A DNA stretch of 27,720 bases from Monosiga brevicollis MX1 (taxonomy: Eukaryota > Opisthokonta > Choanoflagellata > Craspedida > Salpingoecidae), in contig NW_001865047.1 of NCBI RefSeq assembly GCF_000002865.3, positions 711,938 through 739,657 of the forward strand. Direction: 5' to 3'. This document shows, piece after piece, positions 1 through 17,480 of the stretch (positions are counted from its first letter, which is position 1; the number at the start of each line of letters is the position of its first letter). Made by a program: the position numbers and the translations under genes. The notes under the pieces are model-generated. The model had not been told where the DNA came from. It saw nothing but the letters and a program-made list of their open reading frames with translations, and searched no databases.

Positions 1-153
1 CGTCGTTGTCGTCCCGTTGGCCAGGCCAGCATCCGTCATCGTGTTGGTCGACCCCATCGCCGTGGTTGTAGGCATCGTCGTGGTCGTGGTCGTCGTAGGC
101 ATCGTTGTGGTCGTGGTCGTGGTCGTGGTTGTCATGGGCTCGGTGTAGTTGAC
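1..153 (-). repeat. Thr-rich low-complexity coding repeat at the window edge
   Basis: In the frame of the HYR exon this encodes runs of Thr broken by MP and AMG (PMTTTTT..., MPTTTTTT, MPTTTAMG). The DNA is an imperfect GAC/GTC-type triplet repeat. Such Thr-rich stretches often act as O-glycosylated stalks next to a membrane or wall anchor. The C-terminus lies outside the window, so whether the protein has a membrane anchor is unknown. Confidence 0.7.
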
Positions 154-3100
154 CCAGCTAAAAAGCGGCGCCACCCGATCCAACACGTTAAACTCCACAT
201 ACTGACTCACGTTGTTGCCGCACACATCTGTCACCGTAAAGGTCACAAAGTCCAGGTACGTGGCCGCACATCCCGGCACCCGCGACGTGTTGTCATAGTT
301 GTTCGTCCACGTCACCTCGTCGCCACAAGTGTCATACGCGCTGCCGTTGCCATGCGTCGCAAACCAAGTCGCAAACTGCGCCCCGTTGCCCATGCCGTCG
401 CACTCCACCGTCAAATCACTCGGCGCCGGTGCCAGCGTCGGTGCCTTGGTATCAATCACCTCCAGCACCTGCGTCGCATTGTCCGTGTTCCCGCAGTGAT
501 CCGTCGCCAGCACCCCACGATACAACGTTCGCTCATGCGCGCATCGTCCCGGCACCGCCTCGTCCGAAAACGTCACCACAGGGTCCGTATCGCACACATC
601 CGTCACGTTCATGTCCGACTCGCTCGGGATCGCATCACACTCATAAATCCCGTCCGCGCGCACACCCAGCAGGGCGGGCGGCCGGCGATCCACAATGTCA
701 ATGTACGACTCGATGGCCGCCGTGTTGTTGCAAATGTCCGTCGCGTAAAACGTCACGTTGTGCCGGCCCACCGACCCGCAGCTCACCTGCAGCGCATGCC
801 GGTCAAACGCCCACCGCACCGCGTCGCCGCACTGGTCCTCCGCCGTGCTGTTGCCGTGGATGGCCAGGTATTCGCCGATGATCGTCTCCGTCGAGTTGGG
901 ATCGCACTCCACCGTCAGCGTCTCCGGTCCCACGGGGAAGAGCGGACCCGTCGTGTCCACCACCGTGATGGTCTGCGTCTGCGTCGTGCTCAACCCGCAC
1001 GCGTCCGTCGCCGTCCACGTTCGTTCCACCTGATAGGCGTGACCACAGGCCGCGTCCTCGGGTCGCGCCGCCACCTGCTGCTCAGACACAAACGTCACCG
1101 TCACATTGGTGTCACATGCGTCCCCGGCCCGTACCACCGGCATGTCCGGTAGCTCCTCGTGGCACTCAATCGTCACGTTGGCCGGGAAGTTCTGGAAGTA
1201 CGGCGCCGTCGTGTCCCGGCGCACAATCTTGGCCGTCGTCGTCGTCGTCAGACCGCAGGGATCGTGTGCCGTAAACGTCACCGTCACCTCGCCCGTCTCA
1301 CTGCACGATGCCTCCAGACCCGCCTTGACCTCCTCGAAGTTGTTGCTGTACGTAATCGTGCCACCGCACTGGTCCGAGGCCATGGCCCCGCCCACCTGGT
1401 CCAACCACGGCTGGATCTCGTCCATCTGATCCGTGTTGTCGCACTCGAGCGGTAGGTCACGCGCCTCCACATCAAACACGGGGGCCACGTTGTCCGACAC
1501 CGTGTACGTCACCGACGCCGTGCGCTCGTTGCCGCACGGGTCCGACGTCCACCACGTCCGCACAAACGTGTACTCGTCCACGCACCGTCCGTCCGTCCGC
1601 TCATCCCAGAACGTCACGTTGACGTTGTCGCCGTCACACTGGTCCGTCGCCGTCACCGTCGTTCCGTCCGGTAGGGCATGGCACTCCGCCGGGTAAGCCT
1701 GCTTGGGCGGCAGGCCCACAAACTGAGGTGCCACGTTGTCCGTCGTCGTAAACACGGCCACCGACATGTCATGGCCTCCCTCCGTAAACGTCACCGACAC
1801 GTTGTACATGTGCGCCGCACAGCTGGCCGACGCTCCCTGCCAACCCACGTACGCCGACGAAATGGTCGGCGCACCGCAGTCGTCGTGGTCGTCCGGCTCG
1901 GCCCCAAACTCCTGCGCCGCCCACACACGCTGCTCCACCGTAAACGTGTCGCACGTCGACGTGCTGTCCTGCGGTGGCGTCTCAAACGTGCAGCGCACGC
2001 ACGCCTGGCCCGCTTCCAGACACTTGAACCCCGGCACCACCGTGCAGTTGTCAAAGCACCCGTCGATCCCGCCCAGCACACCGTCGTCGCACTCCTCGCC
2101 GGCCACGTGCAGACCATCACCGCAGATGGGCACGCACGACGGTGGCCCTTGGTTCCACGACCCGTCATTCTGGCACTGTCGCAAGCCGCTGTCCTCATTG
2201 GCCAGCTCAAAGCCCGTGTCACACGTGTACGTCGCCACGCTCGGATACCGATTGTCCAGCGACGTCCGCACTTGCCCGTGCGCAATGGTCGGCGCCACAT
2301 CGCACATGCGTCCAATGCAAGCCGTGGCTCCCGTGCCCAGCGTAACGTAGCCCGTCGGGCATGGCGTGCACGCCTCGTCCTGCGAGCTGCTCTTGTACGT
2401 GTTGATGGCACACTCGGTGCACGCACCCGTACCCGAGTTGTAGCCGTACCCCGCTCGGCACAGGCAGTCCGACTGCGCCTGCTGTCCGTTGGTGCTCGAA
2501 AACGCCGGGCATGGCTGGCACGTGTTGCCTGCACTCTGGCCAACCTTGTATGTGTCGACGCCGCAAGCCCGGCACGTGGGCTCGGGGTTGGTCCAGCTCT
2601 GGTCGGTCTTGCACACCGTCGAAGCTGATCCCACCAGCTCGTAGCCCGCCCCACATTGGAACGTCACCGTGGCCGGGTACCGCGATACCGTGGCACTGAT
2701 CGAACCGTAGGTCGGTGCCACCAACGCGTCACACAGCTTGCCCTGGCATTCCACCTCCGATCCCGTCCATGACGTGTCCGGGTTGCAAGTGCGCGTCGTC
2801 GTTCCGCTCTGACGCTCGTAACCCGCATCGCACGTGTACGTGGCCGTTGAGGGATACTTGTTGTTGTTCGTGGTCGATACGACGCCGTTGGTCGGTGCCG
2901 ATAGTGCTCGGCACGTCTTGGCCACACACGTCGGTGGGTTGGCATTCCAGCTCAACGTCGTGCCCGATGCCACACACGTGGCCGAGCTTGACCCAGACAG
3001 CGTGTAGCCGGCGTTGCATGTGTACGTCAACACGTCGCCCACAATCGGGTTGCTCACCACCGTGGCCACACCAAAGCTGTACGTGGGAACGGCCGGGCAC

Positions 3101-6100
3101 GGCAGCGGCTGGCACGTCGGCGCAGAGCCCGAGAAGGTGCGAGTGGCTTGGCAAGTGCGTGTCGCACTGCCCACCAGTTGGTAGCCGTCGTTGCACGAGT
3201 AGGTAATCGTGTCGCCGTAGTACGTGTTTCCACTGACCCGACCGTTGGCCGGTGCCGTCGCCGAGCCACAGCTCACGCGCGTGCACGTCATGGCCGAGCC
3301 ATCCCACGATACGCCCGAGGACGACGCCACGCAGGCGCGGCTCACATCGCCCGAGGCCCGTTCGTAGCCCGGGTTGCAGCTAGTGCGGATGGCATCGCGT
3401 TGCGTGTGAGGTGGGAACAATAAGTGATAGATGTGTCGCAAGGAAAGAAAAGAAAAGACAAAAGAAAAAACATGGACGGGGCACGCACACACCTGTACTC
3501 GGCAGTGACGGGGTAACGACGTGTCGAGTCCGAGTAGGAGATGGCACCATTGGAGACCGAGCCCAAGGAGGGGCAGGTCAGGCCAACACAGGTTCCAATC
3601 GAGGCGCCGCCACAGCCCGAGCTCGTGTAGCCATTGGGGCAGGCCGGGCAAGTGTAGCATGATGTCGTGAATGCCTGCCATGCATTCCAAGTGCCCATGC
3701 CACCATGCTCGTCATGAGGCCCACAGCATGTAACTCGTACAAAAGCATTTGCAACATGACACGGGCAACACTTACGTTGTCTGGTTGGTATTTGCCAGCA
3801 GGACAGCTCACACACGAACCAGCATTGGTCGTGCCACAGCCGCTTCGGTAGTATCCAGCCGAGCACGCCCCACAGCTTGTGCAAGAAAAGTACTGGTGAC
3901 TCGAGCTCGCCATGTATGTGTTCACAGGGCAGAACTGACACGAGCCCGGCCCAGAGCCACCACCGCATCCCGTGAGGTAGTAGCCCGCAGAGCAGGTTCT
4001 GCAACTGGTGCAGGTGGTGCCACGGTAACCACTCTGAGGCTGATATTGCACCGAGGTACAGGCTGTGCACGACCCAGTCGAGCTACCGCCGCAACCAGTC
4101 TGACGATAGCCAGGGTTGCACGCCGTGCCGCTACTGCTACACGAGTTGCATGTGGTGTAGCGATGGCCCGTGCTGGTCATAAAAGTACCACTAGCGCAGT
4201 TGGTGCAAGTTCCTGCACTCGTCGTGCTGGGGCCCGCCAAATAGGTCCCGGCACCACATGTGTTCCATGGTGAACAGCTCGTGATCCGGTGTGAGCTGCT
4301 ACTAATGTAGGTGGCACCGGCACAGGCCGTGCAAAAGCCGGCTCCGATACGAAGGCTGCCGCTGAGCGTCTCTGTGAAATAGTTTCCGGCGTTGCAGGTG
4401 GTAGCTGCCAAACAGGATGACGTGCGATGGGATGTTGACAACTGGTAAGTGCCAAATGCGCACGCCTAAGATGTGGTGATGCCACGAACAAGCGAGGATG
4501 TGTCAGCGTTTGGGGGGGTTCCAAGGCAACGATGAGCGCGAATGTGAAAGTCAATCGTCCAACGTACCGTGCAACTGGTCCCACTCTGGGAATTGCATGT
4601 ATACCCCGTGCCTTGGCCGCACGTCGGGCAGGATGTGCAAGAAGTCAAGCGATGGCTCGTTTGCGACTGATAGGTGTTGGCTGCGCACGATGTACAAGAG
4701 CCAGCACTGCTGGAACCACACGAGGCCTGATATTGGCCAGCACCACAAACAGTACCGGCGGTCGAACACGACTTGCACGAGCTCTGCCCCGTCGAGGTTT
4801 GGAATGTCCCCTAGACAGCGTTCATAACTGTGTCAGCTTCCAGCTGTGTGCGCGACAGCTAGTTTTGATCGAAAACATACCGAAGCGCAGTCTGTGCAGC
4901 CTGTTGCCATTGCTGAGCTTGAATAAGTTCCCTAAAACGTGTTGAACCATTCAAGTTACCAAATGGATTGTTCGTCACTCGTCGTGTGCGTGCCAAGTAC
5001 GGACCACAGGGCAATTTGTGCATGCTGTGTTCGTGTTCAAAGAGCTTGCGTATTTACCAGCCGTGCATGCTAAACAGGGATAGAGATGAGACTGCGTGTG
5101 CGGCGGCTGTCCAAATACCTTTTCTCAAATGCGCTGGTTGAAAATCGCTTTACGACGCACCTTGGCAACCATCAATCTCGATGTTTGAAGACAGCTTGTA
5201 GTAACCAGCTTGGCATACACACGAGTTGCAGCCTTGGGCATCGCAAGCGCTGGTGCAGAGGTTGCACGTGCCATCACAGTTCTCGTCACAGTGGGAGTCA
5301 TACGCACATCTGCGCAAGTTTTCATCACAACACCAACCCGGCTTCAGTGAGCATAATGACCCTCAAACTCTTTTGATACAAGCCGAGCGAGATTTTCAAG
5401 TTTCCTGACCCATCGCAGTCGCAACCTACGAACCCATGTGCATCAAAAGCAACAAAAATCAAGCCATGAAACCAGGTGCATTCACCAGCGTTGAAATTAA
5501 ACGCAGATATACAACATACCTCCACCCCACCAGCTGTCCTGTAAGCCGTGCGGGTTTCAAATAAAGTAAAAGGCGGCGCGGATGGAGCAGACGATGAGAC
5601 AGTTTTGCTGGCAAGAGGTTGCAACGCAGCTCTGATCTCTGGAGGATGACATCACTTACACAATCGCAAGAGTCGTCACAAGTTTGGACATCACAGCCAG
5701 TTTTGCAGCCCTAGTTGCAAAAAAAAAAGACAAATAATGAGTCAAAACCTTTGGCATGCTAGTGCACAAGACACAAAGTGGAAGGAAGCCGGTCGCCAAG
5801 CCTGAAGCCGGACAAAGACGTACATAATCATCGCAATCATAGCTAGCAGGGCAACCATTGTTGCAGCTCGTCGATGCGCACCCATTGCAATAACCACCCT
5901 TGCTGTTTCCAGCGGGAGTGTATGCAGCATCTCGTCGCTGGCGATATGCAATTGAATACTTCTCCGGGTTTTCGATCAGTCCTCGAATGCTTACGGTCTG
6001 TTGTTGATTATCCTTGCCGTTGTCAGCATCGCAGGATGCAAGCCTCTGGAGCTCCGTCAAGGTTTGAGCCCGAGGCAGGTATGCAACAGCTGTCACTGCG

Positions 6101-7332
6101 ACATGCTGTGTCCAGAGGGAGCGCAGCGAGTAGGGTTGAAATGATGTGATCATGTCTTGTAATTGGGAGCAGTGACCACCGGCCTCAGATGGATCATAAG
6201 CGAGTTGTAGCCAGGGAAGACCGAGGTCTGTCTTGACAACGTCTGACAGAATTGTATGAACAGCTGAGCAGATGTTTGACTGCGACGTCACGCATGCTTG
6301 CTGCACAACGTCTTGCCAAGTGAGGCCATCTCGACCAATCGAGTAGGTCACATGAGCTGAGACTTGGTCTTTATCAGTCGTTGCGTAGTGGATCATTGAC
6401 TTTGGCAGGTACAAAATGTCACCGGGAAGCATTGTGAAAGTGTCACAGACCATATTGTCGATCTGGGCATAGTCAAAGCTAGTGCAACCTACACGTTGTC
6501 CGCGGCAGCAGAACATGAAACTTGTTGGACAGGATCATGGTTTTTTTTTTTTTTTTTTTTCATATCCATATATTTTGCAGTGGCGTACCTTCAACGTGTT
6601 TAATTTGAATTTCATGCAACTGGGCTAGTTCTGCCGGTGAAGCCGAGGGCCAAGTCTGACTACTGTTGAGAGCTTGACATAGGTGCCATTCTTTTTGGCC
6701 AGTGACTTGAACCACAAAAACGTCATAGCTACCATGGCGGAGCACAACGAGGTGAGATACACGGGCGGCAAACGGGTAAGCGGGCAGCACACGCCAGGGG
6801 GCAGAGGCACTGACGGATCCGTGTGTGGCTTCAAGGCATGAGCTTGACCGGCGGAAATATACGCGTGGGCCGTGACCTCGGGAGAGCCAAAGACGTCGCT
6901 GATGAGCATTTCAATTGGCTCTTTACTTACGCTCATGTGCTCGCGCCGAATGACGGCAGATTGGCCAGAGCGATAGAATTGGTCACTGTAGTCCATCCAG
7001 GTGGCGGCCTTGGGGAAGGGGAGCTTGGTGCTGTTGGCGGTCTTGAAGGAAAGAGCACTATCATCGTAGAGCTGCTGATATAGCTCGGTCATGAAGACAT
7101 CAATGTTTTGAAGGTCACCAAACCAGGAATCCAAGGGCATCAAGCTGTCCAGGTGGCGGGAAATGTGCAGGTAGTTGCGACGATAAAAGTTTTTGAAAAA
7201 GGTTGAGGCAGCGTTGGGGCCAACGAGGTCTGCAAGTTGAAACGGGTGAGCATGGTTGGCTGCGGGCATGGCTGAGAGCAAGATGCACAACAGCAAGGTG
7301 GCCAGCGTGGCCGGGTGGCCAGCGGCCGGCAT
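1..7332 (-). CDS. Secreted JmjC (Cupin_4-like) / Cys-rich / sushi / HYR multidomain protein, 3' end beyond window
   Basis: Start ATG is at 7332. It opens a signal peptide with a hydrophobic core (LATLLLCILLSA). Exons on the minus strand: 7332-6815, 6728-6589, 6488-5824, 5710-5660, an unresolved stretch, about 5340-5161, 5069-5005, 4931-4881, 4810-4568, 4465-3776, 3674-3493, 3379-1. All resolved junctions are GT-AG and keep frame. Residues about 30-400 form a JmjC/cupin domain of the MINA/NO66 type, with HTD at 170-172 and a third His at 253. Cysteine-rich GCC2/GCC3-like repeats follow, then six sushi domains, a CGDG...GEECDDG repeat, about seven HYR-like domains and a Thr-rich stretch. About 2,050 residues are visible with no stop before the edge. 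The JmjC family hydroxylates proteins using Fe(II) and 2-oxoglutarate. Activity here, outside the nucleus, is inference. Alternative: two fused neighbouring genes, which exon 6488-5824 argues against. Confidence 0.8.
155..1960 (-). other. Tandem HYR-type immunoglobulin-like domains (about seven)
   Basis: Units of about 80-95 residues begin with D-x-x-A-P-x-F or a variant and contain LTVEC, VTIEC or LPLEC. They then have a D-x-C-G/D segment and end with VTFTATDxCGN or a similar motif before the next D-x-x-A-P. Starts readable in order are APQFVG, APVFDV, APYFQN, GPLFPV, PPALLG, APTLAP and APLFSW. HYR domains are extracellular beta-sandwiches that usually act in adhesion or as spacers. The pair of cysteines in each unit is conserved. 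There are many N-x-S/T sites, consistent with a glycosylated surface protein. One uninterrupted exon encodes the whole tract. Confidence 0.8.
2010..3674 (-). other. Six sushi (CCP) domains with an embedded Cys-rich segment and a DUF4215-type repeat
   Basis: Each sushi unit has four cysteines, a central Y-x-C-x-x-G-Y/F motif and a Trp near the last cysteine, for example YSCNPGYERASG, YSCNDGYQLVG, YTCNAGYTLSG, YTCDAGYERQSG, FQCGAGYELVG and YTCDTGFELANE. Units one to five are tandem. A GCC2-like segment (CGVDTYKVGQSAGNTCQPC) then separates unit six. After it lies CGDG...GEECDDG...DGC, the signature of the Myxococcus-type cysteine repeat (DUF4215). Sushi domains usually mediate protein binding on surfaces. 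Intron 3380-3492 splits the first unit inside the codon before CNPGYE. Confidence 0.82.
3493..5710 (-). other. Cysteine-rich GCC2/GCC3 (ephrin-receptor-like / TNFR-like) repeat region
   Basis: Small exons encode repeated units of about 40-50 residues such as C-x-x-C-x-x-G-x-Y-x-S-x(5)-C-x-x-C, for example ACTAGKYASSLNTNTACTNC and CASGTFQTSTGQSSC. The part 5161-5340 has denser cysteines (CDENLRRC, HCDENCDGTC, CTSACDAQGC), more EGF- or furin-like. These folds are disulfide-bonded and extracellular, which agrees with the signal peptide of the same gene. Introns 3675-3775, 4466-4567, 4811-4880 and 4932-5004 are phase 0, so units could be shuffled as exons. The donor at 5004 (GTCCGT) is weak. Confidence 0.75.
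5970..7250 (-). other. JmjC/cupin domain region of the large secreted protein
   Basis: The segment reads FKNFYRRNYLHI near its start. Later come HAYISAGQAHALKPHTD, spliced directly to YDVFVVQVTGQKEWHLC, then MLPGDILYLPKSMIHYA and SAHVTYSIGR. This order matches the Cupin_4/JmjC proteins MINA and NO66: metal-binding HxD, a strand ending in a G-K-x-W motif, then PGD.LYLP...H with the distal His. The triad predicted from my exon model is H170, D172 and H253. A helical region of about 150 residues follows, where the relatives have a dimerization and winged-helix part. The intron inside the HTDP/YDV motif spans 6729-6814, with phase 2. Family assignment rests on motif recognition only. Confidence 0.72.
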
Positions 7333-16227: not shown

Positions 16228-17480
16228 ATGATGATGCATGCGGCACTCATCCCCTGGTTGATCGGGGCCCTGTGCCTGGCCGTTCACGTGTACTCGCAGC
16301 AAGTGCCCAGCTTGACGGTGGACGAGGATGGCACGCTGCACATCAACTCGACCAAGCGCGTCATTGTCAATGGAATCGACGTGGCCGAGGCCGGCACCAC
16401 ACTCCTTGATTTCCTCGAGAACAACCCCAAAAAGTCGTCTCGACATGAGCCATGTACGCATATTCGGTCGTGGGTGCCGACCTGGACCGGGATGGCCATG
16501 TGGACATTGTGAGCGCGAGTCGGAACGATGACAAGCTGGCTTGGTACAAAAACCTTGGCAATGGTCAGTTTTCCGACGCGATCAACATTTCCCTCGAGGT
16601 TGATGGCGCCGTGTCGGTTCATACGGCCGATTTGGATGACGACGGAGACCTGGATGTCCTTGCGTTTGGAAGCTCCAATAACTCCATCGTTTGGTTTGAA
16701 AATGACGGTCAAGGCGGTTTCATGATCAGCCACGTTATCGACAGCAATGCCCCGGGTGCAACCGATGTCATCGCCGCCGATCTTGACGACGATGGCGCCC
16801 TCGACGTTGTTGCTGCCGTGAGTTTGGAGAACAAAGTGGCTTGGTACCGCAATCTGGGTGGGTCCTTTTCAACGCAGCAAGTCATTTCCACCAACGTCCA
16901 GGATGCCCGTGCAGTGTATGCTGCGGATTTGAGCGGCGATGGGCGCTTAGACGTCCTCGGCGTGAGCGACAACAGCGACTATGTCTGCTGGTTTCGTAAC
17001 ATTGACGGATCCACTTTTGCTGCACGTGAGCTCATTGCCACCAACATCATAGACCCGCGTGACGTGTACGCCGCTGATCTCGATGAAGATGGTGATGTGG
17101 ATGTGTTGTCTGCCAGTCTGGCAGATGGCACCATCGCCTGGTACCGCAATGATGGTGATGGCAACTTCACCAAACGCATCATCACAACGTCGGCTTCTGG
17201 GGCGCATGCCGTGCGCGCGGCCGACGTCGACGCGGATGGCCATCTCGATGTCCTAAGTGCCAGTGCATATGCCAATGCCATTGCCTGGTATCGCGGCAAT
17301 GGTCGGGGCGACTTTTCAGAGCCCATTCCCATCACCACGAACGCTCAACGCGCCTACAGCGTCGAGACGGCCGACCTCGACGGCGATGGAGCCCTCGACG
17401 TCCTTAGCGCCAGTGCCTACGATCACAAGATTGCCTGGTACCGCAACGATCAATGGGCCTGGCGAGCTCGCTTTTACTAG
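16228..17480 (+). CDS. Secreted FG-GAP/VCBS-repeat protein with an apparent frameshift
   Basis: Two overlapping frames make one protein. The first starts at 16228 with a signal peptide (MMMHAALIPWLIGALCLAVH) and runs to about 16446 through VNGIDVAEAGTTLLDFLENN. The second, open from 16449 to the TAG at 17478-17480, holds seven repeats of about 48 residues. Each repeat carries a calcium-binding loop (DLDRDGHVD, DLDDDGDLD, DLDDDGALD, DLSGDGRLD, DLDEDGDVD, DVDADGHLD, DLDGDGALD) followed by V-L-S-A-S and I-A-W-Y-R-N. This is the FG-GAP/VCBS propeller pattern, as in integrin alpha chains. No intron of workable size and phase links the frames, so a one-base lesion or a sequence error near 16446-16449 is likely. 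The protein is probably extracellular. The ligand is unknown. Confidence 0.8.

Follow-up and report, generated by a model that had tools for sequence, protein, structure and literature searches.

The window analysed here is a 27,720-nt stretch of the Monosiga brevicollis MX1 genome (contig NW_001865047.1, positions 711,938 to 739,657), and the subject of this report is a gene on its minus strand, running from position 7332 to position 1, in which a JmjC oxygenase-like head is joined to a long stalk of extracellular modules. The gene was modelled with 13 exons encoding 2056 amino acids, without a stop codon, and its frame is still open where the window ends. On the 5' side the frame is closed by a stop at 7401-7399, and 7332 is its first ATG. 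All 12 introns are of the GT-AG type and 70-121 nt long, and all junctions are in phase, the splice sites having been picked by hand to fit the reading; a gene finder run without homology help missed most of the head exons. The predicted protein begins with a signal-peptide-like start, with a mean hydropathy of 3.09 over the best 10 residues compared with 0.35 in the MINA-like protein of locus L012, and its cleavage point is an estimate. The JmjC head, a helical tail, the tetrapeptide R-Q-R-R, Cys-rich and ephrin-receptor-like repeats, six sushi domains, further Cys repeats, a HYR array and a Thr-rich linker follow in that order. When the spliced protein was searched with profile hidden Markov models, Pfam matched JmjC_2 (PF08007, E = 2e-18), Cupin_8 (8e-8), Sushi (six stretches, 7e-47), Ephrin_rec_like (1e-6) and HYR_4C (7e-6; 26.6 bits, slightly below the 27-bit cut-off), and NCBIfam gave no family.

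The first-pass annotation of this DNA had described one exon, 6488-5824, as reading from the JmjC motifs (LPGDILYLPKSMIHYA) through a helical tail into the first Cys-rich unit (GYCNGCASTSC). This was found to be correct, coordinates included: the exon is uninterrupted and lies inside an open frame of 6534-5656, no in-frame stop separates the two parts, and the junction is repeated in paralogs. The continuation of the frame into sushi and HYR domains was borne out by the in-phase exon chain and the domain matches above, and the assignment of the head to the MINA/NO66 type, joined to extracellular modules, agrees with Pfam and with profile matches to both proteins. The C17 paralog (L030) matches the window protein in order over residues 7-2055, except for 519-558. 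Locus L020 (contig C35) matches residues 23-2020 collinearly at 50% identity, and the architecture has therefore been kept over a long divergence. We take the fusion of JmjC head and stalk to be real and to belong to a family.

The earlier annotation covered a single gene, which proves to belong to a large family with receptor tyrosine kinases among its members. A profile search of the genome (39.5 Mb, 57 contigs) gave JmjC_2 at no fewer than 33 distinct loci, from 43 places and one more. Twenty-five of the 33, the window included, were read; outside this set are C25, C28, C34:180k, C48:864k, C51:1150k, C54:464k, C55:892k and C56:446k. A JmjC head followed by Cys-rich repeats was found in 20 of the 25, and five have no Cys-rich stalk in their models (L012, L014, L017, L025 and L029, the last four being poor models). 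The profile searches scored only the best candidates (150 of 303 for Ephrin_rec_like, 135 of 686 for the kinase), so the domain counts are lower bounds. At 12 of the 33 JmjC_2 loci the same strand had an Ephrin_rec_like match no more than 7 kb downstream; there was such a match upstream at none and on the other strand at one, and 2000 random placements on the same contigs averaged 0.22 and never exceeded 3. This test is independent of the gene models; the sizes of two contigs were estimated in it. Signal-peptide-like starts were present in 11 of the 20 head-plus-stalk models, namely those with a readable 5' end, in L020 by way of an upstream frame and most weakly in L026. Similar JmjC scores (134.5-139.6 bits) were obtained for the head loci at C28:278k, C34:180k and C44:982k, and the C44 model (L031) ends after its sushi domains without a transmembrane (TM) segment.

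The solved structures nearest to the head in sequence are those of MINA and NO66, and the head family profile matches them at 4e-24 and 2e-20, respectively. The match to MINA stops near profile position 261 and the tail beyond is unmatched. The HxD motif of the window protein is H170-T-D172 (codons 6825-6817, exon 1), the lysine is K185, which we take to bind 2-oxoglutarate, and the third metal ligand is H253. The metal ligands and the lysine correspond to H142, D144, K157 and H225 of the head alignment, where they, and the threonine of HTD, are invariant in all 17 aligned heads; L013, L016 and L027 were left out of the alignment as near copies or poor models. Read by eye, the metal triad and the lysine are kept in all 20 heads. 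The ratio of nonsynonymous to synonymous substitution rates (dN/dS) over the head exons of close pairs was 0.15, 0.31, 0.25, 0.29 and 0.23 in the five unsaturated comparisons of seven, so the head looks functional. That these are decaying copies was rejected, given the open frames and these dN/dS values (0.15-0.31). Three core cysteines are also invariant in the 17 aligned heads, and MINA has none at those places; in the MINA-like L012 two of them are absent and a cysteine near the third occurs only in a doubtful part of the model. Directly before HxD an invariant histidine replaces an asparagine of MINA. The deep order of the head tree is unresolved, with six of 15 inner branches open, and L012 forms a very long branch. 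A weak search with one short pattern for a bacterial source of the heads gave as the only prokaryotic relative a Polyangia metagenome-assembled genome (L039, 3001-3309, 30% identity), and an equally weak one in viral contigs gave none.

Between head and stalk there is a candidate site for furin-like proteases. The strict motif R-x-[KR]-R stands before the first Cys module in 11 of the 20 models, in each of them at most 8 residues from the Cys-rich part, and elsewhere in the same models it occurs once in 19,919 residues. Dibasic near-matches were seen in C17, L011, L013, L018 and L024, and L010 has RQSR.

Seven of the 20 head-plus-stalk loci have a membrane-spanning end followed by a kinase, a pseudokinase, a tyrosine tail or SH2 domains. 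In C17, the closest paralog, the TM segment GGAVAAVVLVAIVIIFVVRRRR is followed by an acidic tail with several tyrosine motifs, and there is no kinase in the model. Since the stalk of the window gene is nearly identical to that of C17, we do not class the window gene with the RTKB kinases. L032 and L033 combine a TM segment and tyrosine-rich tails with tyrosine-kinase domains that have no HRD motif or usual lysine and look like pseudokinases, as does L024. The C51 gene ends in L037, where the motifs CAAK, HRDLAARN, DFG and WMAPE and six tyrosine repeats were read. L036 (C38) has CAAK and HRDLAARN, and its kinase motifs are intact over the part read, the DFG exon lying outside it. In L038 (C55) a TM segment and a tyrosine tail are present, and SH2 domains are found past an assembly gap of 300 N. 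Beside the C41 tandem pair, a TM segment and NTTYELA motifs in the L016 stretch are perhaps the end of the neighbouring L015. Many PF07714 matches (about 13-203 by profile, among the best 135 of 686) fall on contigs C7, C9, C16, C48 and others in single open frames of about 650-800 amino acids, a large repeated kinase-like family.

One member of the family was traced to a published receptor. The C51 gene (L026 with L037) is a kinase gene holding the tail peptide SEEVYGAVVD of RTKB2 and, from a second tail peptide, the core EEVYEAIAD, as given in the accessible part of PMC3082566; neither was found in any other locus among those examined. Because the published tail peptides lie in L037, the C51 gene is identified as RTKB2 of M. 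brevicollis. It shares Cys, HYR-like, sushi, EGF, TM and kinase parts with RTKB2, for which the figure legend in PMC3584944 lists Cys, HYR, SCR, EGF, TM and RM2, and its six tyrosine repeats are our own count. The gene finder, even with homology support, missed the TM segment and the kinase N-lobe of this gene, and paralog exon ends are approximate. The RTKB2 kinase construct begins at residue 1450 (PMC3584944). In the C51 model with the head the kinase starts at about residue 1422-1432, and without the head some 350 residues earlier. The published numbering fits the head-containing model, and RTKB2 as published thus has room for the head. RTKB2 is described there without JmjC, the N-terminal head being the addition made here; the head seems to have gone unlabelled in the publication, and automatic domain databases may already list it. 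Neither JmjC nor cupin occurs in the accessible text of the tyrosine-kinase papers PMC10263333, PMC8662651 and PMC3584944, the first of which describes M. brevicollis RTKC8, likewise with a Cys-rich and HYR ectodomain, a TM segment and a tyrosine kinase. Literature searches on choanoflagellate JmjC, cupin or 2-oxoglutarate proteins and on JmjC receptor tyrosine kinases showed no such protein in the titles and abstract openings of open-licence papers.

The heads, stalks and cytoplasmic halves are apparently being exchanged between genes. The near-identical tract shared by the window gene and C17 (Table 1) covers the sushi and HYR exons; upstream of it the DNA identity drops sharply, to 95% over 3659-3446 and 81% over 4381-3768, and further upstream only short pieces align (74-81%), with synonymous change in exon 3 saturated. 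The shared stalk tract is likely to be the product of gene conversion or recent recombination under different heads. In a second pair, C38 (L028 and L036) and C55 (L027 and L038), one block of 7.0 kb is 95.6% identical; it begins roughly where the head does and stops about 25 residues short of the TM segment, after which C38 continues into a kinase and C55 into a tyrosine tail and SH2 domains.

Table 1. Coordinates in the window of the JmjC-headed gene and its parts
Feature	Position	Strand	Basis or remark
Start codon and signal peptide, about residues 1-27, MPAAGHPATLATLLLCILLSAMPAANH	7252..7332	-	gene model, hydropathy
Exon 1: signal peptide and first half of JmjC head, ends just past HxD	6815..7332	-	
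Exon 2: JmjC core with lysine K185 (TGQKEW)	6589..6728	-	aligns with a MINA lysine
Exon 3: H253 as third metal ligand (codon 6390-6388), then helical tail, furin-type site and first Cys-rich module	5824..6488	-	
R-Q-R-R, residues 402-405, at the head/stalk junction: predicted furin/proprotein-convertase site	5932..5943	-	
Exon 4, Cys-rich	5660..5710	-	gene model
Exon 5, micro-exon	5520..5538	-	gene model
Exon 6, micro-exon	5410..5425	-	gene model
Exon 7, Cys-rich	5161..5309	-	gene model; 57% match to C17 paralog
Exon 8, Cys-rich/ephrin-receptor-like repeats	5005..5069	-	gene model
Exon 9, Cys-rich/ephrin-receptor-like repeats	4881..4931	-	gene model
Exon 10, Cys-rich/ephrin-receptor-like repeats	4568..4810	-	gene model; 52% match to C17 paralog
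Exon 11, Cys-rich/ephrin-receptor-like repeats	3776..4465	-	gene model; 81% identity to C17 paralog
Exon 12, final Cys repeat and start of first sushi	3493..3674	-	gene model
Exon 13, runs past the window: sushi, Cys repeats, HYR array, Thr-rich linker	1..3379	-	99% identity to C17 paralog
Tract nearly identical to C17 paralog (L030), sushi and HYR exons	4..3438	-	99.2% DNA identity

Elsewhere in the window, two exons of a protein-tyrosine phosphatase (PF00102) were found at 22799-21896 on the minus strand. Upstream on the same strand there are open frames with a membrane-spanning-like stretch, and the JmjC gene may have a receptor tyrosine phosphatase in its vicinity, perhaps covering 26446-21160; the minus-strand frame 26446-25682 gave no Pfam match. 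An open frame on the plus strand, 16449-17477, contains FG-GAP_3 repeats (seven stretches) and perhaps encodes a surface protein.

Taken as a whole, these observations are best explained, with somewhat better than even confidence, by an oxygenase-headed surface receptor with a head that is active within the secretory pathway. The parts of this explanation differ in strength. The window protein is almost certainly a secreted or surface protein with an oxygenase head, because the signal peptide, the cysteines foreign to MINA, the furin-type site and the TM segments and phosphotyrosine parts of seven paralogs all point to the secretory pathway or the surface. The first-pass annotation had proposed a secreted or surface hydroxylase; the location is upheld by these features, and the hydroxylase activity is a prediction. 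That the protein is a membrane receptor like C17 is very probable; it has the signal peptide and extracellular modules of a type I surface receptor of the choanoflagellate phosphotyrosine network, and the TM segment and cytoplasmic part are seen in C17. We consider it fairly likely that the head binds its cofactor and is catalytic, and a cut at the furin-type site is expected at about the same level of confidence. In the proposed mechanism, the JmjC 2-oxoglutarate/Fe(II) oxygenase head would be the outermost domain of a large receptor-like surface protein and would gain its activity in the secretory pathway, whose other lumenal hydroxylases already draw on Fe(II) and 2-oxoglutarate. There it would most likely hydroxylate its own Cys-rich stalk or partner glycoproteins, and we suggest only tentatively that its main targets are the stalk or co-secreted proteins. 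A furin-like protease would cut the head from the stalk, the head then staying bound or being shed, and the stalk could signal by way of tyrosine phosphorylation.

Several points weigh against this reading, which was made from genomic sequence. The window gene runs off the window edge, and any TM segment and tail of its own would lie outside the sequence read. The models of L010, L018, L019 and L031 reach a stop codon with no TM-like stretch, and eight of the 20 head-plus-stalk models leave the sequenced stretch examined without one; part of the family may consist of secreted proteins without a membrane anchor, or else these models may be in error. The paralog models come from a homology-boosted script and are partly wrong, with retained introns and merged upstream genes, and the SH2 link in L038 spans the run of 300 N. 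As to the cleavage, the strict furin motif is absent in nine of the 20 models, C17 has QRR without the P4 arginine, KQRR in L018 stands about 30 residues earlier than the usual position, and L021, L023 and L027 are poorly modelled around the site. As to the activity, two of the seven dN/dS comparisons are saturated, among them the one for the window head, made with C17. The histidine in place of the MINA asparagine before HxD may mean a chemistry different from that of MINA. Finally, extracellular 2-oxoglutarate is scarce, which speaks against activity outside the cell.

Two other explanations are serious rivals. In the first, furin-type cleavage releases the head, which then acts as a free secreted oxygenase in trans on matrix, prey or neighbours, and the stalk is a separate receptor. 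The site at the head/stalk junction and the signal-peptide-like starts in the 11 models with a readable 5' end would suit this; however, cofactors are scarce outside cells, the head is still fused to the stalk in 20 of the 25 loci read, which suggests a role in cis, and no head-only gene with a signal peptide was seen among the 25 loci, four of the five stalk-less loci being poorly modelled. We regard it as unlikely, though to be reckoned with. Slightly less probable still is that the head is a sensor and regulates the attached receptor through extracellular binding of Fe(II), 2-oxoglutarate, oxygen or a related small acid. The head does stand at the outer end of proteins with kinases, pseudokinases, tyrosine tails and SH2 domains, the usual place of ligand-binding domains, and the cofactor residues are retained even where the kinase looks dead. 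Against this, the full HxD...K...H conservation suits catalysis at least equally well, and a sensor would be separated from its receptor by the conserved cut at the head/stalk junction if the two halves did not remain bound. That the head is a folding or processing prodomain with no catalytic role, as its N-terminal place ahead of a furin-type site would recall from proproteins, is improbable, since the active-site residues are kept in 20 of 20 heads and dN/dS is well under 1 in five comparisons. A false exon chain joining two adjacent genes, conceivable in a gene model made from genomic sequence with splice sites picked to fit, was rejected as extremely improbable, given that exon 3 spans the junction in a single frame within an in-phase chain, that C17 and L020 show the same order, and that the RTKB2 kinase construct, published as starting at residue 1450, agrees with the kinase start at about 1422-1432 in the JmjC-containing model.

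The preferred reading, an oxygenase-headed surface receptor, differs from known systems in several respects. JmjC oxygenases are known mainly as intracellular enzymes, and MINA (RIOX2) and NO66 (RIOX1) are nuclear or nucleolar ribosomal oxygenases that act on ribosomal proteins and have C-terminal dimerisation and winged-helix domains. The choanoflagellate heads have the same HxD...K...H site as these two, but they are set apart by a signal-peptide-like start, extra conserved cysteines, a furin-type site and a receptor stalk. The window protein is placed in the JmjC_2 fold family; with its signal-peptide-like start, extra cysteines and extracellular modules, and with TM segments in seven paralogs, from which its location is predicted, it is not classed as a ribosomal oxygenase. 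The same genome retains a MINA-like gene, L012, without a hydrophobic start. A cut at R-x-[KR]-R inside the ectodomain is made in Notch, the insulin receptor and other furin-cut receptors, and the heads share this feature as a predicted site; we know of no furin-cut receptor with an oxygenase as its N-terminal piece. The nearest parallel in location is JMJD8, a JmjC protein behind a signal peptide, described in the accessible part of PMC5684140 as the first found in the lumen of the endoplasmic reticulum (ER). It shares the JmjC domain, the signal peptide and the secretory pathway with the heads described here, but is JmjC-only and ER-retained, with no receptor fusion.

What appears to be new, judged by the literature searches, is that surface proteins of a single-celled relative of animals, receptor tyrosine kinases among them, have an intact-looking JmjC hydroxylase as their outermost domain; the family also shows ectodomains and signalling halves swapped. 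It is a speculative possibility that choanoflagellates have a class of receptors in which tyrosine-kinase signalling is linked directly, by extracellular 2-oxoglutarate/Fe(II) JmjC enzymes, to oxygen, iron, a metabolite or a hydroxylated partner, with heads and stalks recombined and cytoplasmic halves swapped. The family raises the testable question of whether these relatives of animals use such receptors for the sensing of oxygen, iron or metabolites, or for marking surface proteins by hydroxylation.

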